Shown here: positions 10,487 through 41,252 of the stretch, one piece after another | How positions within the stretch are numbered: the stretch's first letter is position 1 | Layout of the letters: each line of letters begins with the position of its first letter | From: Chitinophagales bacterium | GTDB lineage: Bacteria > Bacteroidota > Bacteroidia > Chitinophagales > UBA2359 | Assembly (NCBI GenBank): GCA_020628375.1 | Contig: JAHDFD010000004.1 | Coordinates: 1 to 64,000, forward strand | Direction: 5' to 3' | Length of the DNA: 64,000 nucleotides | Translations under genes and position numbers: made by a program | Notes under the pieces: model-generated | Seen by the model: the letters and a program-made list of their open reading frames with translations, nothing else | Told to the model about the DNA's origin: nothing | The model's database searches: none

Positions 10487-10623
10487 TTTATTTCCGTATG
10501 AAAACTTAATAAGGAATACTGAATAGGTTTTGTTCAAATCTTTTCAATGTTCTTAGATCAGCTTAACGCTTACCCTCACTTTTGGCTATTGTTTTAATAG
10601 CATTTTTACAAAATCTGAATATA

Positions 10624-13269
10624 ATGATTCGTATATATATTTTTCTTACACTTTTCTTTTCGTGTCTGAACTTATTTGGTCAGATCGTTCACTTACCCAA
10701 TAATCCCGATTATGTTTTAAATGTAAAAGATGCACCTTTTGGTGCTGCAGGTGATGGAGTTACCGATGATACACAGGCTATACAGTCTGCAATTTATGCC
10801 AGTTTAACCGGAGACAGAACAAAAATCGTTTTTATCCCCAAAGGAACTTATGTGATAAGTGCTCCTTTGCAGTTAGCTTTTCCAGATGGCAGCCCAGCAC
10901 CTAGTGGTCCATGGATAAAAGGAGAAAGTGAATTCAGTACGATTTTAAGAGTGCCTGATAACGCTGTTGACTTCATGACTGGTATTAACAATGAATACAA
11001 GGGTGTGATGGAAGTACCCTGTGAAGGACCAGAGCAATTATATCAGCATAAAAACATTCAGAATTTCACAATAGACATTGGAGCTAATGACCAGGCATGC
11101 GGTATAAAAATGTGTGGACAAACGAATTTGATAAAGAGTGTAAGAATTAAAGGAAAAGATACAGGAGCCGGAATCATCTTAGGAAATGCGAACGTACCTA
11201 GCAATGCCCTTATTCTTCGTTCAGAGATCAGGAATACAGATATAGGTGTTTTTTGTTTTAATGAATTAAGTAACTATACCATTTCTGAGTTAGTAGAAAG
11301 AAATGTAAAAACGGGTTTAAAAATTGAAAGTGCAACAGTTAGTATTGATAATTTCAGTTATATAGATGGTAGCAGAACAGCTATAGAGGCACTTGATCCT
11401 TCTTCCAACTTCAGTATAGTGAATAGTACATTTACTTTTCAACCAAGTACCGAATCTGAATTATTCACTTTTTATAATTTTTATGCTAGAGATGTTCATT
11501 TATTGAATGCACCTTTAATATCAACGCCAAACCTTTACGGTCTATTTGATGGTGATACAACCCATATAGAGGAAATCTATTCTAGTCAACTATTCAAAAG
11601 CCAGGAAGGTGATTTACAAGGAATGTTAAGACTTCCTGTAAAGCTATCGCCAAGAATTCATTATGATCCGAATATGAATAATTGGGTAAATGTAGAAGAT
11701 TTCGGTGCAATTTGTTCTGATGATATAGATGATGCTGTTGCTATACAAGCAGCAATTGATTTCGCGGTGGCAACCGGTAAAACTACAGTTTATTTTCCGG
11801 GATGTGGATTTTCTGAGACAGATGTTTATCTGATAGAAGATCAATTCATTACGATCAGTGGGAATGTCAATCACTTGATCGGTTTAGGTAATGCTTGCTT
11901 TAAGGGCAATGGCTTTTTATTAGATGACACTTATGCCGAAACAATTTCATTCCAACATATGTATGGTGTATTCAACAGATTAAGTATTGAAAATTCAGAT
12001 ATAAACAGAACAATTGTTTTAGAAGACATTGTTGGAACGGCACTCAACACCGACAATGGAGCAATTTATATGAATAACTTCAGTGGTAATATCAATATCA
12101 GTAACTCCTTTTCAGAAAATTATGGCAGAGCCATCAACACATACTTCTACGATGATGAAGATTTTGCTTTGGAGGGTGTTGTTAATATTGTAAACCAAGG
12201 CGGAAGTTTATGGTTATCGGGTGTAAGAAATGAACAACCTAACTCGGTAATGGCTACCATAGCAGGTGGTGCAAGTGAATTACTGGGTGGCATGGTTTAT
12301 CTGGATAGTATTAATGTAGATCCAATTTTATTTTTTACCGATGATGCAGAAACAACTATTGCCAACTTTCAGGTAAGAGGTTTAGCAGGCAATGGTGGTA
12401 CTTCTCATTTTGTAATCGATTTTGAAAATGGGGTAAATGTTGGGAATATGATCGCTTCTGATGCACAAGTAAACGATGCTATTGTTGTTTATTCTGATGC
12501 CGATGATCTGAAATGTGCTCCTGACGGAACGCCATGTGGTGATGGGAATCCATATTCAGCAAATGATATGTATATCGATTGTGAATGCAGAGGGCAAGAT
12601 ATTCAAATGAACATCAGAGCATTACTCGAAGGCTTTTATATGGAAAATACCAGAGAAATGAGTTCTGATATCAATCAGAAACATTTATTACCTAGTTTTC
12701 AGCCTTTCAAAGACGCTCCTTTCTTCTATAATGGTAGTGAAGCAAATTTTGACATTCCTCTTTATGTAAGTGACTGGATCTTATTAGAGTTAAGAAGTGC
12801 GATCAATCCTGAAATCGTTACTTATCGTCAGGCTGGTTTCATTACGGTTGATGGATATGTAGTTGATTTTTCAAGTAGTGCCGAAGGTTTGGTTTTCCCT
12901 GGACTTCCAAACGGTGATTACTATTTTGCACTCTACCATAAAAGCCATTTACCCGTCATTACTAAAGAACCAATTACTATCAGTCCTGATCAGATCGATT
13001 TTGTTGATCTGAGAAATGAAGCACTTTTAGATGGTTTTGAACCCATAACAGCATTAAACGGTACGAATTTTAAGGCTATGTATGCCGGTGATTTCGACCA
13101 AAATGGCTTAATAAATAACCTAGATTATAATATTTGGCAAGGAGAAAATTCATTAGTGAACTCTTATGTACCACAAGATGCCGATGGAAACGCAATCGTG
13201 AACAATCTGGACTATAATTGGTGGGTTAAAAACAGAAGTAAAGTCGGGCCAGAGTTAATTCATAAATAA
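10624..13269 (+). CDS. Secreted pectate-lyase-3-like beta-helix protein with dockerin-like C-terminus (paralogue 1)
   Basis: An 881-residue secreted protein; the ATG at 10624 gives the signal peptide [20 protein letters not shown]. Two segments match the start of the pectate_lyase_3 right-handed beta-helix domain: [20 protein letters not shown] (about 35) and [20 protein letters not shown] (about 355). A Cys-rich linker ([15 protein letters not shown]) follows, then a beta-sandwich module with DWILLELRS and YHKSHLPVI. Last come two dockerin-type calcium loops, [12 protein letters not shown] (823-834) and [12 protein letters not shown] (852-863). The protein probably binds or cleaves a polysaccharide outside the cell. 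It is the first of three tandem paralogues; no T9SS A-type domain is seen. Confidence 0.8.
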
Positions 13270-13348
13270 ACTTCTGACTAAGTACATTTTACTGAGCATT
13301 CCATTTTGCTAAATAACGATTTTAATAACTCCACAAAAAAAATTGAAT

Positions 13349-15997
13349 ATGCACGCTTTAAAACGAATATTACTTACTGTTTTTGGGGTATTTATTATAA
13401 ACTCTGTTTATGGACAAACCATTCAATTACCAGACAACGATCTGTATGTATTAAATGTAAAAGAGGCGCCTTTCAATGCAAAAGGTGATGGTATTTCAGA
13501 TGATACGCAAGCAATTCAGGCAGCAATATATGCAAGTCTTGAAGATGGAGGAACCAAAGTCGTTTACATCCCGAATGGAAATTATTTAATTTCTTCTTCC
13601 CTACAATTATCAATGAGCGATGGTAGCCCTGCAAGATATGGACCATGGATAAAAGGCGAGAATAAGTTTTCAGTTAAAATATTACTTCAAAATGCGAGCT
13701 CTGCTTTTTCTTCTAACGACACTACTGCCCTATTCGGAATGATGGAAGTACCTTGTGAAGGTAATTCTCAACTACATGAACATAAATCTATCGAAAATAT
13801 CAGTTTTGAATTAAATGATAACCCTAATGCCTGCGCCATTAAAATGTGTGGTCAGACAAGTATGATAAAACATGTTCGCATTAATGGAAAAGGGAATGAA
13901 TTAGGAATAGCGCTGGGTAATGAGCAAATTCCTAGTAATGCCTTGGTATTAAAGTCTGAAATTTCGAATTGCAAAACAGGTATTCAATGTATTAATGAGC
14001 ACAGCAATTATACGCTTTCGGAAGTAAGTTGTAGAAGTATTGGTACAGGTATTCTGATAAAAGAAGCTAATGTAAGTATTGACAATTTCAATTATCTCGA
14101 TGGCTTGGAGGCAGGTATTCTGGCAGATGATGGCAAGGCTACTTTTAATGTTGTCAATAGTACTTTCACTTATAATACCAACAACTCATTTTTGTTCACT
14201 TTTTCAAATTTTTATGCACGCAGTATCAATCTATTGAATCTTTCATTTCAGATACCCGATAATTTATTTGGCACTTTTAACGAAGCAGGAAATATAATTG
14301 AGGAAACTTATTCAGCCGAAGTATTCAAAAGTCAGGAAGGTGATCTTGATGGGATGTTACGTATTCCAGTAAAAACAAGTCCAGATATCGAATATGATGA
14401 GAATATCGACAATTGGGTAAATGTGGCGGACTTTGGTGCTGACTGTACCGATGATATTGATGATTCTGAAGCAATACAGAATGCTGTTGATTTTGCTGTT
14501 TCCAATAACAAAACAACCATTTACTTTCCGGGATGTGCCTTGAATGGTACGGATGTGTATATAATGGAAGATCAGTATGTAACACTATCGGGAAGTATAA
14601 GCCATGTTATTGGTTTGGGATACGCAAATTTGAAAGGAAATGGTTTCATATTGAACAAGACCTATTCAGATGAAATTAGTTTTCAGCATTTATACGGTAC
14701 GTTCAACCGGTTGAGCATAGAAAACTCCGATGTAAAAAGAACTGTGCTTATAGAAGATGTAACCGGAACAGGATTAACTACGGATAATGGTTTTACCTAT
14801 CTGAATAATTTCGCCGGCACTATAAGCATTACCAATCCATTTTCGGAAACGTATGGTCGTGCCATTAACACTTATTTATATGATGAAGATGTAGCCAATG
14901 AAGGAATAGTGAACATTGTTAATCAGGGTGGAACATTATGGCTTTCGGGAGTTCGAAATGAACAACCCAATTCGGTTATGGCCACTGTAGCTGGTGGAAG
15001 AAGTGAGTTGCTTGGTGGTATGATGTATATATGGCATGAGGCTGCCGATCCTATTCTTTTCTATACCGATGATGCAGAAACAACAATTGCTAATTTCAGA
15101 ATGGGCGGTTTAGCGGCAAATGGTGGTGTTTCACAACTAACGGTCGATTATGAATTCGGAGAAATTGTAGGCGGAATGTTATACACCGACACTCAAATTC
15201 CCAATAATATTGTTGTTTATTCTGACGCAGATGCCATTGTTTGTCCGCCTGATGGTACCGCTTGTAATGATGGAAATATTTACACTTCAAATGATCTTTA
15301 TTTAGACTGTACTTGTCAGGGCAATGTAGTTCAGCTAAGAATGCGTGCATTACTCGAGGGCTTATTCGATGCAAGTACCGGAACAATGACTACTATTTCC
15401 AATCAACAGCAAATTATTCCAAATACACAACCATTCAATAAAGCCCCATTTTACTACGGTGGGTCAGAAGCCAATTTCAATATACCCTACTATATATCAG
15501 ATTGGGTATTGGTACAATTAAGAAGTAAAAATGATCCTGAACAAATTCTATATCAGAAAGCTGCATTTATAGCATTCGATGGGAGTATTCTGGATGTTTT
15601 CAGCATAACAGATGGAATCGTATTTCCGGGATTGCCTGTTGGTGAATATTATGTTGCCTTATTCCATAAGAGTCATTTACCGATTATTACACAAAATGCT
15701 ATACCTATAGGTACTGGAATGGTTAACTTATTGGATCTTTCAGATGAATCTCAGATTGGGGGTTTTGATCCACTTACAGCAGTACCTAATTACCTGAATC
15801 AGGCGATGTATGCTGGTGATTTTGATCAAAATGGTATAATCAATAATCTGGATTACAATATCTGGGAAGATGAAAATACAGCAGTGAATATTTACCTTTC
15901 ACACGATGCAGATGCCAATGCCATCATTAATAACCTGGATTATAACTGGTGGGTGAAAAACAGAAGTAAAGTTGGTGCTGCTACTCTTCAAAAGTGA
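13349..15997 (+). CDS. Secreted pectate-lyase-3-like beta-helix protein with dockerin-like C-terminus (paralogue 2)
   Basis: An 882-residue paralogue of the preceding protein, with the same domain order. The ATG at 13349 (MHALKRILLTVFGVFIINSVYGQ) is preferred to an in-frame TTG at 13343. The first beta-helix start is KEAPFNAKGDGISDDTQAIQ, the second NWVNVADFGADCTDDIDDSE. Then come the CPPDGTACNDGNIYTS linker, the beta-sandwich module with DWVLVQLRS and FHKSHLPII, and the loops DFDQNGIINNLD and DADANAIINNLD. It looks closer to paralogue 1 than to paralogue 3; for instance the '[10 protein letters not shown]' rung occurs in 1 and 2 only. It starts 79 bases after paralogue 1. Exact activity is unknown; the canonical catalytic residues of polysaccharide lyases cannot be assigned by eye. 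Confidence 0.8.
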   Translation: MHALKRILLTVFGVFIINSVYGQTIQLPDNDLYVLNVKEAPFNAKGDGISDDTQAIQAAIYASLEDGGTKVVYIPNGNYLISSSLQLSMSDGSPARYGPWIKGENKFSVKILLQNASSAFSSNDTTALFGMMEVPCEGNSQLHEHKSIENISFELNDNPNACAIKMCGQTSMIKHVRINGKGNELGIALGNEQIPSNALVLKSEISNCKTGIQCINEHSNYTLSEVSCRSIGTGILIKEANVSIDNFNYLDGLEAGILADDGKATFNVVNSTFTYNTNNSFLFTFSNFYARSINLLNLSFQIPDNLFGTFNEAGNIIEETYSAEVFKSQEGDLDGMLRIPVKTSPDIEYDENIDNWVNVADFGADCTDDIDDSEAIQNAVDFAVSNNKTTIYFPGCALNGTDVYIMEDQYVTLSGSISHVIGLGYANLKGNGFILNKTYSDEISFQHLYGTFNRLSIENSDVKRTVLIEDVTGTGLTTDNGFTYLNNFAGTISITNPFSETYGRAINTYLYDEDVANEGIVNIVNQGGTLWLSGVRNEQPNSVMATVAGGRSELLGGMMYIWHEAADPILFYTDDAETTIANFRMGGLAANGGVSQLTVDYEFGEIVGGMLYTDTQIPNNIVVYSDADAIVCPPDGTACNDGNIYTSNDLYLDCTCQGNVVQLRMRALLEGLFDASTGTMTTISNQQQIIPNTQPFNKAPFYYGGSEANFNIPYYISDWVLVQLRSKNDPEQILYQKAAFIAFDGSILDVFSITDGIVFPGLPVGEYYVALFHKSHLPIITQNAIPIGTGMVNLLDLSDESQIGGFDPLTAVPNYLNQAMYAGDFDQNGIINNLDYNIWEDENTAVNIYLSHDADANAIINNLDYNWWVKNRSKVGAATLQK

Positions 15998-16091
15998 TAC
16001 GAGCACAAATATTCTGACTAAAATACTGTTTCGCAAAAGCAGGGAAATACGTAAACCCTTGATTTTATGGCAATTGGCTGAATTATTGCTG

Positions 16092-16099
16092 TAATTTTG
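16092..16099 (+). promoter_or_regulatory. Candidate Bacteroidota -7 box for paralogue 3
   Basis: TAATTTTG matches the TAnnTTTG consensus of the primary Bacteroidota sigma factor and lies 24 bases before the ATG at 16124. A TTG occurs about 15 bases further upstream, somewhat closer than usual. It suggests paralogue 3 can be transcribed separately from the first two. Confidence 0.45.
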
Positions 16100-16123
16100 C
16101 ACGTTCTATATTGAATAACGATT

Positions 16124-18796
16124 ATGTACTTTTATACAAGAATATTACTATTTATAAGCTTATTAAGCTTTAGTTATATAAACACCTTTGGACAAAACAT
16201 CTACTTACCTAATGATACCTCTTGTGTTATTAATGTAAAAATGCCACCTTTCAATGCGACTGGAAATGGTTTTACTGATGACACTGAAGCGATACAAGCA
16301 GCAATCTATGCAAGTATTGGTGGTGAAAACTCAAAAGTAGTTTATTTTCCTGAAGGGACTTATTTAATTTCTGAACCTTTAAACTTAGGCTTGCCTGATG
16401 GAACTTCTACCGTTGCAGGTCCGTGGTTAAAAGGTGAAAGTCAATATAGTGCCGTATTAAAAATTGATGATGGTAATAGCGCATTTGAAAGCGGAATCAG
16501 TGATGAATATATTGGTATTTTAAATGTAAGCTGCAATAATCCTTTCATTCCATTTGCCGGTCATAAATCAATTGAAAACATCGGTTTTTACTTAGGGAAT
16601 AATGCAACTGCCTGTGCTATCAATATGTGTGGGCAATCGAACTTCATTAAGAATGTAAGGATAAAAGGAGAAGGTGTTGGTGCCGGAATTTGTTTAGGAA
16701 ATGAACAGTTCAGCAGTAGTGGTTTAGTAATGCAGACAACCTTAAAAAATACCGATGTTGGTATTTATTGTTCTAACGACCTTAGTAATTATACACTAAC
16801 TGAAGTACTTTGTATAGGATTGAATGATGGTATAGTATTAGATGAAGCAATGGTATGTATCGATAATTTGGTAGCGCTTGAAACAAGAGGCATTGGTATT
16901 AAAGCATTGGATACACTTACCAATTTCAGTATTTTGAACAGTACATTTCAATTTACTGAAGCAGCAAAACAAAGCGGAAATATTTTTTCCTACCATAACT
17001 TCTATGCAAGAAATATCAACTTGGTAAATTCACCAACAATAACAGCAACTAGCCCGATATATGGTGTATTTGATGGAGACACTACCAAAATAGAAGAATT
17101 ATACACTGCTCCTGTTTTTAAAAGTCAAAGTACAGATTATGAAGGCATGTTGGGTATTCCAATAAAGACTTCTCAGCGTACTTTGTATGATAGTAATATG
17201 GACAACTGGGTAAGTGTTGCAGATTTTGGCGCTGACCCGTCTGATAACCTTGATGATTCTGTTGCGATACAAGCTGCTATGGACTTTGCAGCTGATAATG
17301 GAAAAACAACGGTTTACTTTCCAGGGTGCGGACAGTTCAGTGGAGAATCTTATAAATTAATAAACCAATATGTTTCTATAAGAGGAACCGTTGAAACGCT
17401 TATTGGTTTGGGATATGCCTATATTGAAGGTAATGGCTTTATTGTGAATCAGAATGTTTCTCCTGCATTTACTTTCAAGCATTTGTATGGTTTGAATATA
17501 AATGCGCCTGTAACTTATGAGAATTTTGATGTGAATAAAACGGTCGTATTTGAGGATACAGGTGGTATTGTTTTAGTTTCGGGAAGCGGAACTGCTTTTG
17601 TGAATAACCATACTGGCTTTATGGGAAATGCTAATGCTTTTTCTGATGTTTACGGTAGAAGCTTAAGTAATTATTTACTCAACCCGGCCGATTATTCAGA
17701 AGGTTATATAAGTCTGGTAAATCAGGAAGGAAGGATGTGGCTATCAGGTGTAAGAGCTGAGCATCCATATAGTATTCTTGCCAGTATGAACGGTGCAAAA
17801 ACAGAGATAGTTGGTGGTTTGGTGATGCCTAATTATTTACCAGATGCTCCACCTTTATTCATTACTACAGAATCAGAAATGACCATTGCTAACTTTAAAG
17901 TAAGAGGTTTGGCCGCCAATGGTGGAACACAACAATATACATACGATCTTCAACAAGGGGTTAATGTTGGAAATATGTTCCATACAGATGCTGCAATTCC
18001 AAATACTATTGTAATTTACTCTGATGCTGATGGTCCTGATTGTCCACCTGATGGTACAGCTTGTGATGATGGAAACCCCTTTACTACTAATTCAGTCTAT
18101 CAGAATTGTGAATGTGTTGGACAAAAGGCGCAGTTAAGTATTAGTGCTTTATTGGAAGGTTTTTATAATACTGAGGTTGGAGAAATGACTACTGAATTAA
18201 ATCAAGCACGTCTTTTACCACAAACACAACCGTTCAATACTTCCCCCTTTAACTATACAGGAACAGAAATTAGTGCTTTTATTCCTCCATTTGTTGTAGA
18301 TTGGGTATTGGTAGAATTAAGAAATGTAAATGATCCTAATATCGTTATGTATCAACGTCCTGCCTTTCTTTCTTTAGATGGAAGAATAATAGATATTGAA
18401 GGTTATGCGCTCGGAACTACTTTCCCCGGCTTGCCTGGTGGTAATTATTATGTGGCGCTTTATCACAAAAGTCATTTACCCATTATAACAAAAGAACCAG
18501 TGAATTTAAATAATACTGAAACCGCCTATATCGATATGACTTCAGATCTTAATGTAGAAGGTTTTCAGCCATTAACCGATTTGGTTGGTAGTGGCTTTAA
18601 AGCACTTTTTGCAGGAGATTTTGACCAGAATGGTTTAATCAACAATCTGGATTACAACCTTTGGTTATCAGATAATTCAGCAGTTAATGAATACCTTCAG
18701 CAAGATGCCGATGGTAATGGTATAATCAACAACTTAGATTATAACTGGTGGATCAAGAACAGAAGTAAAGTTGGTGCACCTGTACTGCATAAGTAG
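16124..18796 (+). CDS. Secreted pectate-lyase-3-like beta-helix protein with dockerin-like C-terminus (paralogue 3)
   Basis: The 890-residue third member has an N-terminal signal peptide (MYFYTRILLFISLLSFSYIN, cleavage near TFGQ). The two beta-helix starts are KMPPFNATGNGFTDDTEAIQ and NWVSVADFGADPSDNLDDSV, each followed by an AIQAA(I/M) helix and the VYFPG strand. The linker is CPPDGTACDDGNPFTTN; the beta-sandwich module carries DWVLVELRN and YHKSHLPII; the terminal loops are [12 protein letters not shown] and DADGNGIINNLD, both fitting the dockerin calcium-loop pattern. It is the most diverged of the three and has its own upstream promoter-like box. A partial family B repeat begins 15 bases after its stop. 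Confidence 0.8.
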   Translation: MYFYTRILLFISLLSFSYINTFGQNIYLPNDTSCVINVKMPPFNATGNGFTDDTEAIQAAIYASIGGENSKVVYFPEGTYLISEPLNLGLPDGTSTVAGPWLKGESQYSAVLKIDDGNSAFESGISDEYIGILNVSCNNPFIPFAGHKSIENIGFYLGNNATACAINMCGQSNFIKNVRIKGEGVGAGICLGNEQFSSSGLVMQTTLKNTDVGIYCSNDLSNYTLTEVLCIGLNDGIVLDEAMVCIDNLVALETRGIGIKALDTLTNFSILNSTFQFTEAAKQSGNIFSYHNFYARNINLVNSPTITATSPIYGVFDGDTTKIEELYTAPVFKSQSTDYEGMLGIPIKTSQRTLYDSNMDNWVSVADFGADPSDNLDDSVAIQAAMDFAADNGKTTVYFPGCGQFSGESYKLINQYVSIRGTVETLIGLGYAYIEGNGFIVNQNVSPAFTFKHLYGLNINAPVTYENFDVNKTVVFEDTGGIVLVSGSGTAFVNNHTGFMGNANAFSDVYGRSLSNYLLNPADYSEGYISLVNQEGRMWLSGVRAEHPYSILASMNGAKTEIVGGLVMPNYLPDAPPLFITTESEMTIANFKVRGLAANGGTQQYTYDLQQGVNVGNMFHTDAAIPNTIVIYSDADGPDCPPDGTACDDGNPFTTNSVYQNCECVGQKAQLSISALLEGFYNTEVGEMTTELNQARLLPQTQPFNTSPFNYTGTEISAFIPPFVVDWVLVELRNVNDPNIVMYQRPAFLSLDGRIIDIEGYALGTTFPGLPGGNYYVALYHKSHLPIITKEPVNLNNTETAYIDMTSDLNVEGFQPLTDLVGSGFKALFAGDFDQNGLINNLDYNLWLSDNSAVNEYLQQDADGNGIINNLDYNWWIKNRSKVGAPVLHK

Positions 18797-30385: not shown

Positions 30386-32635
30386 TTATTTCCATTCAAA
30401 AGAATCGCTCAATCCTTCTAGTGAACTGGTTCCGACCATTACATCGAAATCACCAGGCTCTACTACAAAATCTCCGCGATTATTATAAAAACCCAATTCT
30501 TTTTCGGTTAGTGTGAAATTAACCGTCTTGTTCTCTCCTTTTTTAAGGAATATTTTCTCGAAGCCTTTTAATTCTTTTACGGGCCTTGAAACACTTGCTA
30601 CTTTGTCTCTGATATAGAGTTGAACTACTTCAGAACCATCATAATTACCTGTATTTTTCACATTGACGGAAACCTGAATATTATTACCATTGTTCACAAC
30701 TTTCATATTATCATAGGCAAAATCAGTATAACTCAAGCCGTAACCAAAAGGATACAAAGGAGCATTGGTTTCATCGGTATAGTGTGACCAGAAAACAAGA
30801 TCGATCGGGCCAGGGCGACCAGTGTTCAGATAATTATAATAAATAGGCACTTGTCCTTCTGTACGAGGGAAAGTCATCGTTAATTTTCCACCCGGAATAT
30901 TATCACCAAAAAGTGTTTCAGCAATTGCATTTCCGCTTTCTGTTCCCAATTGCCATGTTTCTAAGATCGCAGGAATATTTTCAGCTTCCCAATCGATCGT
31001 TAACGGACGACCATTCATTAAAACCAAAATTATATTCTTATTTACTTTATAAACTTCCTTCAGCATTTTTTTCTGCAAACCTGGTAAGTCTAAATTCGCA
31101 CGGCTTCTACCTTCTCCACTTTGATAACCATGTTCTCCTAAAACCATTATTACTACTTCAGATTTTTTTGCTAGAGCCACTGCTGCATCGATCCCACTTT
31201 TATCTGTATTATTTACTTCCACTTCATGAAGAAAATCTTCGGCTTTCAGAAATATATCCACGCCTTTTTCATAGCTGTAATTATCTGTATATTTTTTAAA
31301 TCCTTCCAAAAATGAAACAGCGGTATTATTATCTGTTCCTAAACGCCAGTTCCCTAAAGGACTGTTATCTTCATCGGCTAATGCACCAATGATTGCAATG
31401 TTCTTTTGCTTTTTATCCAATGGTAATAAATTTCCTTCATTCTTTAATAAAACAATAGATTTCTTTGCCATATCAAGCGCAGCTTTCTTATGATCCGGGT
31501 GGTATAATAATTCCTTTTCTTTTTTGGTATCACAATACTTATAAGGATCATCGAACAATCCTAATTCAAACTTCACTTTTAAGATACGTGCTGCTGCATC
31601 ATCGATCAATGCTTCTGCAACAGTACCTTCTTCAACTGCTTCTTTCAAATGACCAACATAGGCATAAGATTCCATATCCATATCGCAACCTGCATTTGCT
31701 GCAATAATTCCTGCATCTTTCAGGTCTTTTGCAAAACCATGTGCCTGCATTTCAGATATTGAACCCCAATCAGAAACCACAAAGCCATCGAAATTCCATT
31801 TACCTTTTAATATATCTCTTTGAAGAAAATCATCGCCGGTTGCCGGAATACCATTCAGGGTATTGAAAGCATTCATAAAGGTACGGACATTCGCATCGAT
31901 ACAAGCCTGAAAAGGAGGAAGTAACACGTTGTACAGAGTAGAAGTACCCACATCAACAGCATTATAATCTTTTCCTGATTCAGCGAAGCCATAACCTACA
32001 AAATGCTTTGCACAAGCTGCCAGTGTATTATCATCACTAAGGTCTTTTCCCTGAAAACCTTTCACTCTTGCCTTTGCTACTTCACTTGCCAAATAAGGGT
32101 CTTCTCCTGCTCCTTCCATTACCCTTCCCCATCGGGCATCACGAGAAATATCGACCATAGGAGCAAAGGTCCAATTCAAGCCTTCGGCACTTGCCTCGAT
32201 AGCGGCAATACGAGCTGCATTTTCCATTGCATCCAAATCCCAGCTAGCAGATTCTGCCAATGGTATCGGAAAAACTGTTTTATGACCATGAATAACATCG
32301 AAACCGAATATCAATGGAATACCCAAACGTGATTCATTAACTACCATTTCCTGTAACTGACGAACATTTTTGACTCCTCTTACATTTAAAACAGAGCCAA
32401 CTTTACCACTTTTAAGTGCATCATACTTCCATTTTGCTCCATCTCCATCTTTGGGTGCAGGACCAGTAAAATCCCAGAAGCCATTAAGTTGAACCATTTG
32501 CCCGATCTTCTCTTCCAAGGTCATCTTCTTCAACAACTTCTGAACTTTAGTATCTATATCTTTCTGAGCAGATACATTCAGGCATATAAAACTTAATGAG
32601 AGTAGTATAAATTTTAAGCAATTATTTTTAAACAT
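30386..32635 (-). CDS. bglX: Glycoside hydrolase family 3 beta-glucosidase
   Basis: A 749-residue exported GH3 enzyme that releases glucose from beta-glucosides. Signal peptide MFKNNCLKFILLSLSFICLN, cleavage near VSAQ. The GH3 N domain (about 30-365) has the KHFVGYG motif (210-216) and the nucleophile Asp289 in GFVVSDWGS. The C domain follows (about 395-600, with GEHGYQSGEGRSR), and a fibronectin III-like domain closes the protein (about 660-735). Order and length match periplasmic BglX. It is last in the glycan locus after GH16, where it would hydrolyse the oligosaccharides GH16 releases. No secretion sorting tag is seen, consistent with a periplasmic location. Confidence 0.93.
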   Translation of the reverse strand: MFKNNCLKFILLSLSFICLNVSAQKDIDTKVQKLLKKMTLEEKIGQMVQLNGFWDFTGPAPKDGDGAKWKYDALKSGKVGSVLNVRGVKNVRQLQEMVVNESRLGIPLIFGFDVIHGHKTVFPIPLAESASWDLDAMENAARIAAIEASAEGLNWTFAPMVDISRDARWGRVMEGAGEDPYLASEVAKARVKGFQGKDLSDDNTLAACAKHFVGYGFAESGKDYNAVDVGTSTLYNVLLPPFQACIDANVRTFMNAFNTLNGIPATGDDFLQRDILKGKWNFDGFVVSDWGSISEMQAHGFAKDLKDAGIIAANAGCDMDMESYAYVGHLKEAVEEGTVAEALIDDAAARILKVKFELGLFDDPYKYCDTKKEKELLYHPDHKKAALDMAKKSIVLLKNEGNLLPLDKKQKNIAIIGALADEDNSPLGNWRLGTDNNTAVSFLEGFKKYTDNYSYEKGVDIFLKAEDFLHEVEVNNTDKSGIDAAVALAKKSEVVIMVLGEHGYQSGEGRSRANLDLPGLQKKMLKEVYKVNKNIILVLMNGRPLTIDWEAENIPAILETWQLGTESGNAIAETLFGDNIPGGKLTMTFPRTEGQVPIYYNYLNTGRPGPIDLVFWSHYTDETNAPLYPFGYGLSYTDFAYDNMKVVNNGNNIQVSVNVKNTGNYDGSEVVQLYIRDKVASVSRPVKELKGFEKIFLKKGENKTVNFTLTEKELGFYNNRGDFVVEPGDFDVMVGTSSLEGLSDSFEWK

Positions 32636-32677
32636 GAGAAGTGGGTTTGTGTATTAATAAGAATTATTTATAAAAAA

Positions 32678-32725
32678 TTCCCAGCACCCTGTCAAGGCTA
32701 AAAGTCCCTGACAGGGTGCTGGGAA
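32678..32725 (-). terminator. Rho-independent terminator after the GH16 gene
   Basis: The 17-base arms TTCCCAGCACCCTGTCA and TGACAGGGTGCTGGGAA are perfectly complementary. On the minus strand the hairpin is followed by a T-run. It lies 14 bases after the GH16 stop and separates GH16 from bglX, implying that bglX needs its own promoter or read-through. Confidence 0.88.
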
Positions 32726-32738
32726 ATAAAGTTTTAAA

Positions 32739-33902
32739 TTACTGGAAAACACGGACATAATCGACTACCATACGCTGAGGAAAAACAGTTGCCGATGAAG
32801 GGGCTCCCGGCCAGTTTCCACCAACAGCAACATTCATTATAAAAAAGAAAGGTTCGCGCAACTCATCGAATTGGCTTTCACTAGTATTGATGATGTGATA
32901 CTGATTATTATCGAGTAGCCATCTTATACTATTTTCATCCCATTCTATAGAAAACACATGAAATTCCTCCGTAAAATCACCACTTGATAAAACAGTACTT
33001 CCTTCGTAAGATGCATGTTGTCCATTACTTTGCCAGTGTACGGTTCCATAAACTTTATTAGGTTGATGCCCCAATAACTCCATGATATCGATTTCACCAC
33101 AAGCGGGCCATCCAACTGAAGAAAACTGGCTTCCCAGCATCCACAGAGCAGGCCAGATTCCTTGTCCTTCTGGTAATGCGGCACGTATATCTACTCTTCC
33201 GTATTTGAAATCAAAGGTATTCGCTGACTTCATTCTGGAAGAAGTATAATTTCTGCCACCTACAAACTCTTCACGTGCTTCGATAACCAATTTACCATCT
33301 ATGGTATAAGCATTATTTTGGGTGTAGTACTGCCATTCGTTATTTCCCCATCCATTATTACCGGTTCCGGTTTCAAAAGTCCAGGTATCGGCAAGCACCT
33401 GATCGTCGTCGAATTCGTAAGACCAGATCAGCTCACGGTCGGGATATGATTCTGGCGACATATATCCTGTTGCAGGAATAAATCCACCTTCCGAATCATC
33501 ATTACGAATTACAATTTCTGTTGAACTTTGTCCAATAATTACATTGGTTGCTGAAGTAATTTCCACAAAGAATGATTCATTAGCTTCTGCTTCTTCATCA
33601 CCATATATCTGAACAGGTATCTGAACGGTTGCTGTTCCGGCAGCGAATGTTACCGGCAGATCGTCTAATGCTTCATAATCTTCTCCTGCCTTTGCACCTC
33701 CATCGCGTGTTCTAAGTGTTATACTTACAGGCAGATCACTTTCTTCAGATAGCCTTATATTCAAAAAAAGTGGTGCAGTTGTATTTCCTTCATCTACCGA
33801 CATAGCTTCTACACTTACAACGGGTGTTCCATTACTTCCTGAATCATCTTTACAGGCGCTTATGCACCAACAAAAACATAGAAGAAAAATGATCTTTTTC
33901 AT
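32739..33902 (-). CDS. GH16 endo-beta-1,3-glucanase (laminarinase-type) lipoprotein with Calx-beta domain
   Basis: A 387-residue lipoprotein. The ATG at 33902 gives a lipobox CISAC with the lipid-bearing Cys17. A Calx-beta-like domain (about 28-136) ends in IVIRNDD. The GH16 catalytic domain (about 155-387) contains GEIDIMELLG with nucleophile Glu270, Asp272 and acid/base Glu275. The Met insertion (E-x-D-x-x-E) is typical of the laminarinase branch. Nearby WPALWML and the ending DYVRVFQ also fit. It would cut beta-1,3-glucan such as laminarin at the cell surface. It is in the susC/susD locus, upstream of bglX. A family B element sits 49 bases upstream of its start. Confidence 0.92.
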   Translation of the reverse strand: MKKIIFLLCFCWCISACKDDSGSNGTPVVSVEAMSVDEGNTTAPLFLNIRLSEESDLPVSITLRTRDGGAKAGEDYEALDDLPVTFAAGTATVQIPVQIYGDEEAEANESFFVEITSATNVIIGQSSTEIVIRNDDSEGGFIPATGYMSPESYPDRELIWSYEFDDDQVLADTWTFETGTGNNGWGNNEWQYYTQNNAYTIDGKLVIEAREEFVGGRNYTSSRMKSANTFDFKYGRVDIRAALPEGQGIWPALWMLGSQFSSVGWPACGEIDIMELLGHQPNKVYGTVHWQSNGQHASYEGSTVLSSGDFTEEFHVFSIEWDENSIRWLLDNNQYHIINTSESQFDELREPFFFIMNVAVGGNWPGAPSSATVFPQRMVVDYVRVFQ

Positions 33903-33951
33903 AATAAACTGTTTTGCAAAAATCAAATAAGAGCTTGTTTGAATTTCTATT

Positions 33952-34111
33952 AAGTAGTCGGAAAAAAGTTTATTAATAGTTCTTTTGGATATTTTTTTGA
34001 TTTACTTCGTCAAAAAAGCCTCAAATATTTTAATATTCTTCGTATTTTCTACTTGTCTATCAAAAAAATATCTCAAGAAAACATTATAAAGAAATTTCTA
34101 CACGCCTACTT
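33952..34111. repeat. MITE-like element, family B, full copy inside the glucan locus
   Basis: A 160-base copy with the same length and ends as 29413-29572 (AAGTAGTCGGAAAAAAGTTT at the left, GCCTACTT at the right). It lies between the GH16 gene and the PKD lipoprotein gene, in the same orientation relative to the downstream leftward gene as the copy at 29.4 kb. No ORF and no clear target duplication are visible. Confidence 0.8.
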
Positions 34112-34131
34112 GAAAAGATATATTTTAAAAA

Positions 34132-34173
34132 AATGGACGATACTCAATGAAAAATCATTAAATGTCGTCCATT
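34132..34173 (-). terminator. Hairpin after the PKD lipoprotein gene
   Basis: AATGGACGA (34132-34140) pairs perfectly with TCGTCCATT (34165-34173), with an inner AATGA/TCATT pairing. On the minus strand an A/T-rich run follows. It lies 23 bases after the stop of the PKD gene and probably ends the susC-susD-PKD transcript. Confidence 0.65.
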
Positions 34174-34196
34174 ATAAAACTAATTTACAAGCTTGT

Positions 34197-35936
34197 TTAT
34201 TCTACAGATTCTAATTCCATAGTCCACCAAGCGGTACCATCACCTGCAATATCAACTGCTATGGTCATTTTTGAAATACCTGGTGCAGAAGCAAAATCAA
34301 TTACCTGATAGGTTATTTCTGAAGGAATATTCACATCGGCACAGCTTACTTCTCCACCGTTGAAACCTTTATTAAAACCAAGGAATGCTCCCTGACCACT
34401 TACTGTGATCGTAGCACCAATACCTTCACCTGCCACAGAATAAGCATGGTTTCCTGAAGCGTAAGCTTCAAAACCAGCAGATAAATCGCCTTCATCGATA
34501 CAAGCAACTGGTCCACAAACAAAGTCATCAGCAAAAACATCTCCTTTAGAATCATAGTTAAAATCTCCATTATCGAAGAAAATAAATTCATCGTCCATTT
34601 GACATCCTCGATCTGCGAAAATATCAAACTCAGCACCTGCTGTCCACCAGCTTCCATCTCCGGCGCCTGGACCAACATAGTAAGGTGTACTTCCTGAAAG
34701 TGTCCACGCTTTACCATCTGCTGAACTTATTGCCGACGCAGAAAACTCTTCTGAACCAATAATGATCGTTTGAGTAGCTGTAGCTGTAAGACCGTTATCG
34801 TCGGTAACCGTAAGTGTTACGGTATATTCTCCTTCTGCTGCATAAGTGTGTACAGGACTTTCATCTGTTGAAGTTGCTCCATCACCAAAATCCCAGAAGT
34901 AAGATGTTGCATTACCTGAGAAATTATTGAAAGTGTATGTTAAGCCATCGGCACTATAATTAAAGCCAGCTGTTGGCAATGATGTTGGAATTTCAGGTAA
35001 ATTAGATTCATCATCATAGCTAACAAGGAAGAATGTCCAGGCACCACTACCATCCAATAATTCAATTGCAATATGTAATGAATCAGCAACTTCCCCTTCT
35101 ACCAGGTTCAATATTCTGTAAGCTTTTGATTGTTCAGGAATACCACTATCTCCTAATTCTGTTTTATTGGCTAAACCAATATAAGCTCCAAGTCCATTCA
35201 ATACTAAGCTATTCGTTGTTGATTCGTATTCGTAAGTGTAATCACCACCATTACCGAAAGCTTCAACAGAACTTCCATTAGAAGCAGTTAAAGTTTCTGT
35301 TGATTCGTCAAAACAGCCACCCGGATTATCGGCTAACCAGCCTCCAAATTCTTGTTCATCGATATATAGTGTATTGTTAGAGTCGAATTCAAAAGTACCG
35401 TCTGCGTGGAAAGTGTATTTATCATCTAATACACAAGGACGATCGCCCAATGGAGCAATACCACCAAGATTCCACCATTGTACATCACCTGCTACCGGTC
35501 CGATTCCCAGAGCAACACCTTCACGTTGTAGATACCATGTTTTACTGCTTGTTCCAGATAAAAGTTGTATTTGTCCTTCTGCAGAAACTAAAGTTATTGA
35601 TTGTGTTTGTGTTGAAGATTCTCCGTTTCCGGTAACTGTTAAACTTACTTCATAAGTTCCAGCTTCAGCATAAGTATGCGTTGTAGAAATTTCTGAAGAG
35701 GTGTTACCGTCACCAAAATTCCAGACATGTGTTTCAGCATTATTAGAATAGTTCAGAAAATTAACTTCCAAACTATTATCACTAGACACATTGTATTGGA
35801 AACTTGCAACTGGAGAGGTACTTTCTCCACCTCCATCATCGTCTTTCTTACAACCAGAATTCAACACTATGCCCAATAAGGCAACTAGTATTAATGTCCA
35901 TCTTGTATGGAACATTAGTTGTGTTAGATTTTTCAT
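34197..35936 (-). CDS. PKD-domain surface glycan-binding lipoprotein (SusE/F position)
   Basis: A 579-residue lipoprotein (lipobox LNSGC, Cys about 29) encoded directly after susD. It contains two similar halves, each a PKD domain (about 40-115 with HVWNFGDGNTSSE; about 325-400 with YFWDFGDGATSTDE) followed by an all-beta module. Those modules share the order 'W-x-L ... G-x-G...WW ... DD(K/E)(Y/F)xF...G-x-F-x-x-(D/Y)(S)', consistent with an internal duplication. Aromatic residues are abundant. In beta-glucan loci of marine Bacteroidota, PKD lipoproteins at this position bind laminarin at the surface. The role here is inferred from architecture and position. Confidence 0.82.
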   Translation of the reverse strand: MKNLTQLMFHTRWTLILVALLGIVLNSGCKKDDDGGGESTSPVASFQYNVSSDNSLEVNFLNYSNNAETHVWNFGDGNTSSEISTTHTYAEAGTYEVSLTVTGNGESSTQTQSITLVSAEGQIQLLSGTSSKTWYLQREGVALGIGPVAGDVQWWNLGGIAPLGDRPCVLDDKYTFHADGTFEFDSNNTLYIDEQEFGGWLADNPGGCFDESTETLTASNGSSVEAFGNGGDYTYEYESTTNSLVLNGLGAYIGLANKTELGDSGIPEQSKAYRILNLVEGEVADSLHIAIELLDGSGAWTFFLVSYDDESNLPEIPTSLPTAGFNYSADGLTYTFNNFSGNATSYFWDFGDGATSTDESPVHTYAAEGEYTVTLTVTDDNGLTATATQTIIIGSEEFSASAISSADGKAWTLSGSTPYYVGPGAGDGSWWTAGAEFDIFADRGCQMDDEFIFFDNGDFNYDSKGDVFADDFVCGPVACIDEGDLSAGFEAYASGNHAYSVAGEGIGATITVSGQGAFLGFNKGFNGGEVSCADVNIPSEITYQVIDFASAPGISKMTIAVDIAGDGTAWWTMELESVE

Positions 35937-36009
35937 TTTTTGTTAGTTTAATGTTTAACTTAAAAGATTTTTATTAATTACTTTCTATTTGGGTTTTGGT
36001 TTTACTATA

Positions 36010-36027
36010 GACGTTATATATAACGTC
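36010..36027. promoter_or_regulatory. 18-bp perfect palindrome between susD and the PKD gene
   Basis: GACGTTATATATAACGTC is a perfect palindrome in the 212-base space between susD and the PKD lipoprotein gene. It could be a protein-binding site or a small hairpin in the leader of the downstream gene. Confidence 0.45.
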
Positions 36028-36034
36028 TCCACCT

Positions 36035-36096
36035 CGACAAGTATCAGCCTCCACAAGTCAGTATCAACAAGTGTCAGTCTACACAAATATCAGTCT
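36035..36096. repeat. Four degenerate 14-16-bp tandem repeats
   Basis: Units of the type CAACAAGTGTCAGTCT occur four times: 36035-36050, 36051-36064 (two bases shorter), 36065-36080 and 36081-36096. They lie in the untranslated space downstream of susD. No function is evident. Confidence 0.6.
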
Positions 36097-36148
36097 TCAA
36101 ATCTATAACAGTTTTTCCTCTCATTTAGACCTGTTATTACTATTCTTT

Positions 36149-37816
36149 TCAGAACAAGCTTGCATCGGGATATTCAGTAAGATTAGGAGCAACTGATAAT
36201 TCTTCTAAAGCAATAGGTAACCATAAATGTTTATCAGAAAAGTTGGCTGCTTTTTCATCAGAGAACAAATCAGCAGATGCACGTCCTGAACGAACAAGAT
36301 CGTACCAACGATCTCCTTCCATAGCAAATTCAGCACGACGTTCATACCATATTTGCTCAAGCAGGCTCCAGTTATTATTACTCATTGATTCTTGTGTAGT
36401 AATAAAATCACCATTGTTATCGCCTGGCCCTGCCGCACGTTCTCTAACTATATCTATATACTCCATTGCCATTGCATCACTTCCACTACCTCGGTGTAAA
36501 GCTTCGGCTAACATTAATAATACATCAGCATAACGAATAATATACGTGTTACCATCTTTTGTTAAGTCCAATGTTCCTCCGTTAACATTAATAGCATCTA
36601 CTTTAATAGTATCCTCACCTTCTACAATTTCTCCACCATTATATAATTTATAGTTTGCATATTTCTCCTGAAAGAAACCCGTGTAATCTAACAGATTATT
36701 TTGTGTCAAATCAATCACCACATCACATGATTTTCCTGAAGCAACAATTTCACTATTCAATTCTGCAACTGTAGTAATGGCTACATCACGGCGATAGGTA
36801 TCGTCGCTTTTGAAATGGTTGTATAACTTTTCGGTAGGCAGCATGAATCCCCAACCAGCGGTATAATCAGGGTGATTATCACATAAACCTCGAATTCCGC
36901 AAAGTTGAATAATACCGTTTCCATCGATTCCTTCAAACCAAACCCAGTCACTTGGAAATAAATTGCTATGTTGTGCTTCGAATACTGATTCTGTTTCAAG
37001 ATTTTTTACACCAAAACCAAACAAACTCTGAAAATCATCTTCTAATTGATAAACTCCTGAATCAACTACTTGTTGAAGTGCCTGTGCTGCCAAATCGAAT
37101 TTTGCAGGATCATCGCCATCCATGTCTGCCCAGTATAAGTAAGCTTTCCCCAATAAAGCCAGTGCTGTTCCTCTACTTGCTCTTCCAGCTTCTGCCGAGC
37201 TCAGGCTTTCCGGTAGTATGGCTGCAGCTTCTTCGAGATCGGTTGTAATTGCCTCAAAAACTTCATCCATTGTATTTCTTGACAAATCACTTTCTCCCGG
37301 AGCCAACAAAGTAGTAACTACCGGAATAGGACCAAAGTGTTTAAATAATTCGAAGTGATAATAAGCTCTTAAGAATTTTGCCTCTGCTTTATATCTGTCA
37401 ATCAATTCCGATTCTACTCTTGCATTTTCCAAAACCGTATTCGCTCTGAAAATACCAATATAATTTCTTCGATAAATAGGATGAACTACCGTATTGGTAT
37501 TGGTATTGGTAAAATCATCGAATTCTTGCCAGCCGGGCTGATCGTTATTCGATTGATCACCACCTGCATTCGCATTATCGGAACGTATTTCTCCGTACAT
37601 AACATAAGAGATCCACTGTCCGAATGCCATTGACCAACCAATAGGATCGTAAGCTGAAACAGTTGCAGCAAACACCTGTTCTTCGGTTATAAAAAAGTTA
37701 CTCGATAAATATTCATTTACCGGCTCAACATCCAATATGCTCTCACTGCATCCAGTTGGCAATAAACTTAAACAAGTTAAGAAAAAAAGTTGTACCGAAA
37801 TTATTTTCTTTTTCAT
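36149..37816 (-). CDS. SusD/RagB-family nutrient-binding lipoprotein
   Basis: A 555-residue surface lipoprotein (lipobox LPTGC, Cys about 23) that binds glycan and forms the lid of the SusC porin. The N-terminal ESILDVEPVNEYLSSNFFITEEQVFAA stretch is typical, as are YRRNYIGIFRANTVLENA, KAEAKFLRAYYHFELFKHFGPIPV, and the C-terminal IWYERRAEFAMEGDRWYDLVRSG. TPR-like helices frame the ligand-binding face. It follows susC by about 80 bases. The glucan specificity is inferred from the neighbouring GH16 and GH3 genes. Confidence 0.95.
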   Translation of the reverse strand: MKKKIISVQLFFLTCLSLLPTGCSESILDVEPVNEYLSSNFFITEEQVFAATVSAYDPIGWSMAFGQWISYVMYGEIRSDNANAGGDQSNNDQPGWQEFDDFTNTNTNTVVHPIYRRNYIGIFRANTVLENARVESELIDRYKAEAKFLRAYYHFELFKHFGPIPVVTTLLAPGESDLSRNTMDEVFEAITTDLEEAAAILPESLSSAEAGRASRGTALALLGKAYLYWADMDGDDPAKFDLAAQALQQVVDSGVYQLEDDFQSLFGFGVKNLETESVFEAQHSNLFPSDWVWFEGIDGNGIIQLCGIRGLCDNHPDYTAGWGFMLPTEKLYNHFKSDDTYRRDVAITTVAELNSEIVASGKSCDVVIDLTQNNLLDYTGFFQEKYANYKLYNGGEIVEGEDTIKVDAINVNGGTLDLTKDGNTYIIRYADVLLMLAEALHRGSGSDAMAMEYIDIVRERAAGPGDNNGDFITTQESMSNNNWSLLEQIWYERRAEFAMEGDRWYDLVRSGRASADLFSDEKAANFSDKHLWLPIALEELSVAPNLTEYPDASLF

Positions 37817-37897
37817 ATTGCTGAGTTTGAATAATTGTACATATAGTTTAACAATGAAATGCTATTCACTGTTTATCTTAGTAAATTCTAATTGCTT

Positions 37898-40800
37898 TTA
37901 GAAAGTTATGGTTAATCCTCCACCAAACGATTTATTATTCGGGTAGAAGCCTTTATCAATACCAGTATCCAGTATCCAGCCATTCGTTCCAATATCGGGA
38001 TCGAAGCCTTCATAACCTGTAATGGTTAATAAGTTATTTGCAGTAAAGTAAATTCGTAGTCCCTGCATCTTAATTTTGGAAATAATAGATTTAGGTAAAC
38101 TATAACCCACCTGTAAATTTCTCAATCTTAGGAATGAACCATCACTAAGATAGAAGTCTGACGGACGTTGGTTATTATTTACATCATTTGAAACCAATCG
38201 CGGATATTCGTCGCTTGGATTTAGTGGTGACCAACTGTCGAGCCAGAAATCCTGATAATTGGTAAAAGTTATATCCGATCTTTCATAAGTTCTATATATC
38301 TGATGTCCTATCTGAGCAGCGAATATGGCACTTAGATCAATACCTTTAAATCCTGCATTCAGTGAAAGTCCAATAATATGTTTTGGCCAAGGAGAACCGA
38401 TATCAGTAATATCATCACTATTGATTTCTCCATCGTTATTGGTATCTACAAATCGGATATCACCTGGTTGTGCATTTGGTTGTAAAGGAATACCATTACT
38501 GTTAATATGACTGAACACTTCTCCCTGAGACTGAAAGATACCATCGGTTACATAGCCTACAAAATGCCCAACAGGAAAATCTTCAGTCATACGTGTAATC
38601 GGTGTATTTCGTACCGGCCAAGACCAACCTTGTATAAAACCGCTTTCTCCGGCAACTTTTATTACTTTATTTTTGAAATGCGTATAGGTAAGGTTCGTAT
38701 TCAAAGTAAAATCACCTGCTCTTAAACGATGCCCCAATGCCAATTCAATTCCCTGATTACGTATTTCTCCTAAGTTACTTGTAGGATTATTGGTTGCTCC
38801 GATATAGCCCGGAATAATTTCCTGCATAAGCAGATCTTTGGTTGTTTTACGATAAAAATCAGCTTCAAAGTTTACTTTTCCATCGAAGAACTCCATTTCT
38901 ACACCTATATCGATCTGTTCGCTTTCTTCCCACTTCACATCAGGATTAGGAGGTGTTGCCAAGGCAGAACCATAATTAAGTGCCTGATCCTGTCCGAAAG
39001 GATAAGTAAATACATTTTGAATGGTTGCTGCATAGCTTAAAGCCGGAATCCTGTCATTTCCGTTACGTCCCCAACTCACTTTAACTTTCAAAAAGTCTAA
39101 GACATTGTTTTCCGGGAAGAAAGGCTCTTTACTAACGACCCATCCGGCAGAGAAAGAAGGGAAGATTCCCCAACGATTATTTTCTCCGAAATTAGAAGAA
39201 CCATCACGACGTAAAGTTGCCGTGAACAAGTATTTTTTCTTAAAATCATATCTTACACGACCGAAATAAGATAATAAACGATATTTAACATCGCCTGTAC
39301 CATAAGAAAGTTCTGTTGTATCTGCTCCGGCATTAACATATTGCCAGTTATCATCGAATTGTACTGCTTCTGGAATATTATTACTGGAGCCTCCGGCAGA
39401 TTCCCCGGTATATCCTCGGTAAGATGTTCCTAATACAAAATCGGTGTTGTGTATATTCTTGAAAGATTTATTGTAGTTAAAATAGTTTTCTAGTTGAACA
39501 GACTGATTAATACCATAACCCTGAGAAACCCCATTTTGTACATTTATGAATGAAGGGTGAAACTCATAAGCCGGTGTAAAACTTCTGAAATTGAACCAAC
39601 CTAATTCCAAACCGGCATCAGATCGGAAAGTAAGTCCTTCGATCGGACTTATTTCGAGATATACATTTCCTTTTACCTGATCGGCATGCCCATTACCATT
39701 GGCAAGGAATAAACGGCTAAGGGGATTAATGTATTCTTTTTGCACCCATCTTGACTGTTCAAAACCGTATTGTTTATCTTCATTATAAACACCTGTAATC
39801 GGATCGTAAGCAAAGGCATCTGAAATTACAGAGCCAAAAGCATTGTTTACGCCAATATTTGAATTTTCAGTTCTGTTGAAGAATATGTTCTCTCCAACTT
39901 TAATGTATTTATTGATCTCTTTTTCGGAATTAACACGCGCTGAATAACGTTTGTAATTTGATTTTTCTCCACCAATAACACCATTCTGATCCCAGTATTC
40001 AAGAGAAAGGAAAGCATTTTTCGTTGTTGCTGAGATTCTGTGGTTTTGAATAAGTGCCGGTTCAAAAATAACATCCATCCAATCTGTATTTGGAAGCCCT
40101 TCTGTTCCTGCCTGCGGAAAACCTAGTGCATCTAAAGAGGCTAACTGGTTACTATTGGCAAATTTTTCACGTGTGAGGGTGATATAATCATCAGTATCTA
40201 ACATTTTAGGCAACCTCCACGGATTCGATATAGAAGTAAAACCATCGTAAGTTATGTTTCCACTTCCTTCTTTTTTTCCTTTTTTGGTTGTTACAATTAC
40301 CACTCCATTAGCGGCTCTTGCTCCATAAATAGCGGTTGAGGCTGCATCTTTTAAAACATCTACCGATTCGATATCACCTGGTGCGATATTATCAAGATTG
40401 AAAACCTGTAGTCCATCTACGATATACAAAGGTGAATTATCGCCATTCGTACTTACCCCACGAATGAGTAATGTTTTCGATGCACCTGGCTGACCTGAAG
40501 ATTCATTTACAACTAAACCTGTTACTTGCCCTTCGAGCGCTGTACTTACATCCTGTACTTTAAAGCCTTCAATATCTTTTGCTTCTATTTTAGAAATGGC
40601 ACCCGTAGAAACTTTCTTTTCCTGACGACCATAGCCAATAACGACAAATTCTTCGAGTAATTGAGCATCGCTAGATAAACGGATATTCTGCACTCCAGCA
40701 TTCTGAACAATGTGTTCTTTGGTGATATAACCAACATAAGAAATCACTAAGGTATCATTGATGGCTACATTCCTGATCTGGAATCGACCATCGATATCTG

Positions 40801-40963: not shown

Positions 40964-40981
40964 TTTTCTATAATTTTAAAC

Positions 40982-40989
40982 CAAATTTA
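40982..40989 (-). promoter_or_regulatory. Candidate -7 box for the glucan locus
   Basis: On the minus strand TAAATTTG matches TAnnTTTG and lies 18 bases before the GTG of susC. No TTG is seen at the ideal upstream distance, so the call is tentative. Confidence 0.35.
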
Positions 40990-41252
40990 AAAATAGGTGA
41001 ATTTAATCAGATACAACTATAATTCAGTAAATTAATATATTTTTTGTTTAAGAAAACTGTACTCCAAGTAAATATTCTTTAACAGACGCCTTTCTCAATT
41101 CAAAAAAATGAAAATGAAACTTTATGTAAACAACTCTTATATGACAAAAAATTCCAACTCACCGAGTTTCAGGTATCCGTTGGCCCGGAGACACAACGAT
41201 GGTAAACAAATGTAAGTAGTATGACTCTAAATGAGTTGTCAGAGAGAAACTA

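Follow-up and report, generated by a model that had tools for sequence, protein, structure and literature searches.

Three tandem genes with GH55-like bodies

The window analyzed here is a stretch of 64,000 nucleotides of Chitinophagales DNA. Its open reading frames include three genes arranged head to tail on the + strand that encode proteins of 881–890 residues, in agreement with a sequence-only reading of the same DNA that had placed three tandem proteins of this size at 10624–18796. Proteins 1 and 2 share 48–49% identity with protein 3 over the full length. For protein 1, the ATG at 10624 was taken as the start; a TTG start at 10582 lies upstream of it and gives an 895-residue reading. Along each protein, the β-helices are followed by a linker with four cysteines and then by a C-terminal module. 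The features are as follows.

10624..13269, + strand: protein 1 (881 residues); signal peptide, GH55-like double β-helix, Cys linker, C-terminal module
10717..11397, + strand: protein 1, first β-helix segment (PF12708, residues 46–272 of the 895-residue reading; GH55 match as well)
12514..12588, + strand: protein 1, Cys linker (4 Cys)
12592..13083, + strand: protein 1, β-sandwich half of the C-terminal module
13084..13266, + strand: protein 1, dockerin-like half (loops 13090–13125 and 13177–13212)
13343..15997, + strand: protein 2 (884 residues); signal peptide, GH55-like double β-helix, Cys linker, C-terminal module
15242..15316, + strand: protein 2, Cys linker (4 Cys)
15320..15811, + strand: protein 2, β-sandwich half
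15812..15994, + strand: protein 2, dockerin-like half (loops 15818–15853 and 15905–15940)
16124..18796, + strand: protein 3 (890 residues); signal peptide, GH55-like double β-helix, Cys linker, C-terminal module
18041..18115, + strand: protein 3, Cys linker (4 Cys)
18119..18610, + strand: protein 3, β-sandwich half (the structure model was made of this protein)
18611..18793, + strand: protein 3, dockerin-like half (loops 18617–18652 and 18704–18739; a helix directly behind each loop)

All three proteins match PF12708 (Pfam) in two stretches. This retains the two pectate-lyase-3 segments that had been proposed for each protein, but the closest solved bodies are not pectate lyases. A profile built from the bodies of the three proteins and one outside homologue (L074) matched two GH55 β-1,3-glucanases, 5m5z at E 1.4e-14 and 3eqn at E 9e-12; each helix of these structures contains one aligned stretch. 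The two tandem β-helix segments shared with these enzymes are both covered by the profile, and the two-stretch match relates the tandem double β-helix to solved GH55 enzymes. However, the good alignment is limited to the start of each helix, and the catalytic glutamate of the second helix lies beyond it. With GH55 as the closest solved sequences, the bodies are better called GH55-like than pectate-lyase-like. This reading fits the surroundings of the trio, because a β-glucan-type utilization locus is located ∼12 kb downstream in the window (30386–43934), where GH3, GH16 with Calx-beta, a PKD protein, SusD, and SusC are followed by a TPR histidine kinase. The Cys-rich linker, likewise suggested before, carries four cysteines in each protein; in another protein that carries the module, the stretch preceding it is matched by the NCBIfam repeat NF033662.

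Structure of the C-terminal module

The AlphaFold2 model of the module, calculated with an alignment of 78 members, has a pLDDT of 92 and a pTM of 0.86 and displays a β-sandwich with two loop-helix units behind it. About 220 C-terminal residues are thus predicted with high confidence to form one domain, in which an Ig-like β-sandwich packs on a duplicated F-hand pair. Both the β-sandwich and the paired F-hands had been anticipated from the sequence, and both are present in the model. A full-length prediction based on four sequences scored poorly (pLDDT 46) and was discarded.

The sequence-only reading had assigned two loops of the form DxDxNGxxNxxD to each protein. All ligands are indeed present in six of six loops, but the exact string is found in only four, as the second loops of proteins 1 and 2 deviate from it (in protein 2, the loop reads DADANAIINNLD) while keeping the ligands at positions 1, 3, 5, 9, and 12. 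Two 12-residue loops, ligands at these five positions, and a helix behind each loop, all seen in the module, are the features of a dockerin, and judging from their sequence, both loops probably bind calcium.

In the PDB, the ten best fold matches are either X-module–type II dockerin pairs from Clostridium thermocellum or longer scaffoldin chains in which such pairs occur (E 6e-5 to 4e-4, rmsd ∼5, TM 0.58–0.64 relative to the length of targets consisting of the pair only). Identity is 13–14%, and the likeness in fold does not imply homology. An isolated dockerin superimposes with an rmsd of 1.8 over 54 columns, and the module shows a dockerin sequence resemblance to 8x39/8x3a. No significant match to the module was found in a viral fold library, and no match was found in plasmid records.

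Similar to the X-module–type II dockerin pairs (PDB codes 2b59, 5k39, and 4wi0), the module consists of an Ig-like sandwich followed by a C-terminal pair of F-hands. In cellulosomes, the X-dockerin pair anchors the complex to cohesins of the cell envelope, and the X-module is thought to stabilize the dockerin (PMC5141474). Whereas CipB possesses a 23-residue linker with a small helix between the loops (PMC5141474), the loop-to-loop spacing of the module is 29 residues, and a third helix is not predicted in between. The module further differs from these pairs in its low identity to them, in the lack of a cohesin above the cut-off in the genome, and in residing on 40 separate proteins instead of a scaffoldin.

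Neither Pfam nor NCBIfam holds a model for the module, and no description of this domain was found in open-access papers. Dockerin_1 (PF00404) is weakly matched by 21 of the 78 members (best E 9e-5), and no place in the genome reaches its curated cut-off of 22.9 bits. The dockerin-like modules known outside cellulosomes (GC-type, NF041540) resemble the module in having C-terminal dockerin-like loops in organisms without cellulosomes; the single match of the module to NF041540 is weak and, as a sequence match, not significant (E 0.085). We know of no sandwich that is an obligate partner in those modules.

Spread of the module and exchange with known sorting domains

The three copies recognized before are correct, but the module is far more widespread. 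The C-terminal 219 residues of protein 3, used as the query against the whole genome (3.30 Mb in 41 contigs; completeness 69%), returned 43 places at E ≤ 0.001, which open reading frames resolve into 40 full-length copies, including the trio, and two truncated ones. The module is not a product of chance, since it recurs at 37 other genomic places at E 1e-34 or better and since 34–40 of the 40 paralogues keep each of the five ligand positions in both loops. N14 and W16 behind each loop are invariant in these 40. Paralogues share 59% identity in the dockerin-like half versus 33% in the sandwich, the former being higher in 776 of 780 pairs, as would be expected if a single partner were shared by all copies. 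Of the truncated copies, one (G000:C33:22296–23669) is devoid of the dockerin-like half, and the other (G000:C21:101109–101312) comprises this half only.

The bodies of the carriers are unrelated and mostly other than carbohydrate enzymes. They include M43, M60, and reprolysin-type peptidases, a sulfatase, a metallophosphatase, GH16 and CBM6 proteins, DUF11 repeats, and rhodanese, LVIVD, and Reeler proteins, among others, and their N termini resemble signal peptides by eye. About eleven carriers are located on a single 63-kb contig (G000:C9), for which no type A matches are listed. In 38 of the 40 copies, the protein stops within 10 residues past the module. The remaining two have tails of 22 and 24 residues and are 258-residue proteins built of nothing but a signal peptide and the module. 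These two proteins (L046, 2345–3121 and 4163–4939, on G000:C33) bear a 20-residue Cys-containing tail (KKDCPYC) and could possibly act as free competitors or adaptors.

One genome per species was scanned, which yielded 79 loci. Loci with a named group belong to Saprospiraceae, Chitinophagales, Spirosoma, Fibrella, Phaeodactylibacter, and other Bacteroidota. The C-terminal position is nearly strict: 146 of 155 distinct closed module ORFs stop within 17 residues past the module, and five of the other nine reflect alignments that ended early in divergent loops. A true exception is L104 (2287–5208), the sole carrier whose module is internal; a segment that by eye resembles a YHYH domain follows it. 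Divergent members across the phylum have the two loops at the extreme C terminus, often ending in ...VP.

The module also excludes the known sorting domains of the type IX secretion system (T9SS). Local models derived from confirmed A and B tails were applied to 2,850 ORFs taken from the loci, some of which overlap. These ORFs gave 204 readings of the module, 71 of type A, and 6 of type B, and none combines the module with a type A or B domain. When 64 carriers were compared with NCBIfam, the type A and type B models each had at most one possible match: neither was among the families matched by two or more carriers, and families with a single member were covered up to the first 25. Consistent with the earlier statement that a T9SS A domain is missing, no type A or B domain occurs in the trio, and no hidden sorting domain emerged, as the T9SS sorting models of NCBIfam match none of the 78 members. 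A match to TIGR04183, which defines type A, was found neither for the trio nor for the 78 members. In the same genome, type A is matched 145 times and type B 17 times, alongside at least 40 copies of the module.

Homologous proteins carry either the module or a known tag. L104, with the module, and L150, with TIGR04183, are 55% identical over 495 residues. L084 and L134, which bear a divergent module, have their N-terminal halves in common with L085 and L087, which bear TIGR04183. A further carrier, at C9:191–2923, shares its N-terminal domain with L127 and L147, which have TIGR04131. Carriers are assigned to the “choice-of-anchor” families B and V of NCBIfam, where the module fills the variable slot; we take the family name to reflect that members bear different C-terminal sorting signals. 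Within a phylum sample, TIGR04312 proteins have tails that are type A, dockerin-like, or not evident as a tag. One choice-of-anchor B protein (L200, 1432–3762) possesses a terminal dockerin-like pair with cysteines (GDFNSDGVRNVADFLQLLGEFSCN...) and no evident sandwich.

The module thus shares the general features of T9SS sorting domains, being C-terminal on Sec-exported proteins, present once per protein, and interchangeable, and its general role as an interchangeable C-terminal sorting or anchoring tag is well supported. Such a genome-wide tag, which replaces type A and B domains on homologues, supports the original suggestion of a calcium-dependent attachment or secretion signal; the module may serve secretion, anchoring, or both.

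Possible partner and route of the carriers

Three types of T9SS tags, A, B, and C, are known (PMC10202324, PMC12618676). The module occupies the same C-terminal slot as types A (TIGR04183), B (TIGR04131), and C (ChiA), likewise on signal-peptide proteins with diverse cargo, and is swapped with types A and B. In contrast to the T9SS C-terminal domains, it is longer (∼220 residues), contains two calcium loops, and has X-dockerins, not T9SS domains, as its best folds.

The type B C-terminal domain usually has a neighboring PorP/SprF gene. The module showed neither a TIGR04131 match nor an adjoining PorP/SprF gene, and its behavior is unlike that of type B, because all six PorP/SprF-like genes of the genome lie away from every carrier, leaving no linked shuttle, yet one of them adjoins a type B gene on contig C36. 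On contig C21, sprA, a gene of the T9SS translocon, precedes a module carrier by ∼1.9 kb, with an unrelated ORF in between; this proximity could be due to chance.

The module profile (cut-off E ≤ 1e-6) was run against an evenly drawn set of 296 Bacteroidota genomes and detected the module in 42 of them, which represent 37 of the 140 genera. Each of these 42 genomes also contains sprA and type A proteins, whereas the module is found in none of the 68 sprA-negative genomes. The naive probability of this association is 6.5e-6, although the sprA-negative genomes listed are mostly of one family, which makes it statistically weak. The co-distribution is consistent with a link to T9SS but falls short of proof. 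The genome studied here has the most module copies found, and some genomes have an apparently single copy among about the best 10 candidates scored per genome.

As the sequence-only reading had stated for the window, cohesins are missing, here on a genome-wide search with the Pfam cut-off. Across the draw, cohesin families at E ≤ 0.01 occur in 28 of 42 module-bearing genomes versus 74 of 254 others, with the kinship of the genomes ignored, and are absent at this threshold from 14 of the 42. Because no cohesin exceeds the Pfam cut-off here and because of this occurrence in the draw, a requirement of the module for a classical cohesin is not supported; a diverged receptor may serve instead. Four sub-threshold cohesin matches in the genome were considered and not claimed as a receptor, the domain on C30 resembling the N terminus of a carrier by eye. 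That protein (L042, 1378–2217, on G000:C30) comprises 279 residues with a signal peptide, the weakly cohesin-like domain, and a type A sorting domain, and is conceivable as a surface receptor. Another protein (L039, 1132–3321, at about 72.8–76.2 kb on G000:C35) combines an internal dockerin-like loop pair, a weak cohesin-like stretch, and a type A domain; loop pair and stretch may possibly form an intramolecular pair. Genome-specific co-evolution of the docking half was not adopted, as identities within and between genomes are similar; this comparison is biased, the outside loci having been fetched by a docking-half pattern.

On balance, we slightly favor the module being a C-terminal sorting or anchoring tag of Bacteroidota that is probably linked to T9SS. 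A carrier would enter the periplasm via its signal peptide, and the tag would then fold and bind calcium. The duplicated conserved face (NN-D-[YF]N-x-W in both repeats) would be recognized by one common partner, most likely a T9SS component or a protein linked to T9SS, that passes the carrier through the outer membrane or holds it there, with cleavage or anchoring as possible fates. The trio would accordingly represent three GH55-like, β-glucan-degrading enzymes placed at the cell surface or outside the cell. T9SS sorting is the likelier branch, because the module replaces export tags and because the carriers show no evident alternative route across the outer membrane. It is opposed by the fact that dockerins, to which the fold is akin, are attachment rather than secretion modules, and also by the mid-protein module of L104, the apparently single-copy genomes, and the lack of a linked shuttle gene. 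The more specific proposal, that the module represents an additional class of T9SS signal, a calcium-loaded X-dockerin-like domain whose duplicated F-hand face is recognized by a conserved T9SS component, is tentative.

The main rival, which we consider rather unlikely, is docking independent of T9SS, where the module in the presence of calcium plugs the protein into a receptor of the outer membrane or matrix after export by another route. It would account for the type II X-dockerin pairs among all top ten folds, the resemblance to 8x39/8x3a, the enrichment of cohesin families in module-bearing genomes, and the duplicated, strongly conserved face, which is reminiscent of dockerins with two binding modes. 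However, the genome richest in copies has no cohesin above the cut-off, a third of the module-bearing genomes lack even weaker matches, the identity to X-dockerins is low, and the replacement of type A and B domains would leave the carriers with no known outer-membrane route. Calcium-stabilized sandwich domains are common in secreted enzymes, and a structural or ligand-binding accessory domain that confers stability or binds glycans could also explain the two 258-residue proteins, as free binding proteins, and the internal copy of L104. Such a role without sorting seems improbable given the near-strict C-terminal position on unrelated cargo, the exclusivity with sorting domains, and the concentration of conservation in the last 60 residues. 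The F-hand loops and fold might finally be taken for a degenerate cellulosome-type dockerin acquired with cellulosomal genes, but intact ligands in nearly all copies, carriers that are mostly not carbohydrate enzymes, the lack of a cohesin above the cut-off, and the spread over 37 genera make a remnant highly implausible.

Even if the module should prove to be an anchor only, it constitutes a widespread domain for which Pfam and NCBIfam have no model. As a further T9SS signal, it might offer a way for extracellular calcium to trigger folding, release, or retention of the carriers, and dockerin-like domains in bacteria without cohesins would gain a concrete role. Prediction of T9SS secretomes relies on type A, B, and C tags. 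If the module is a further tag, a large group of secreted and surface proteins escapes such predictions in lineages that employ it.
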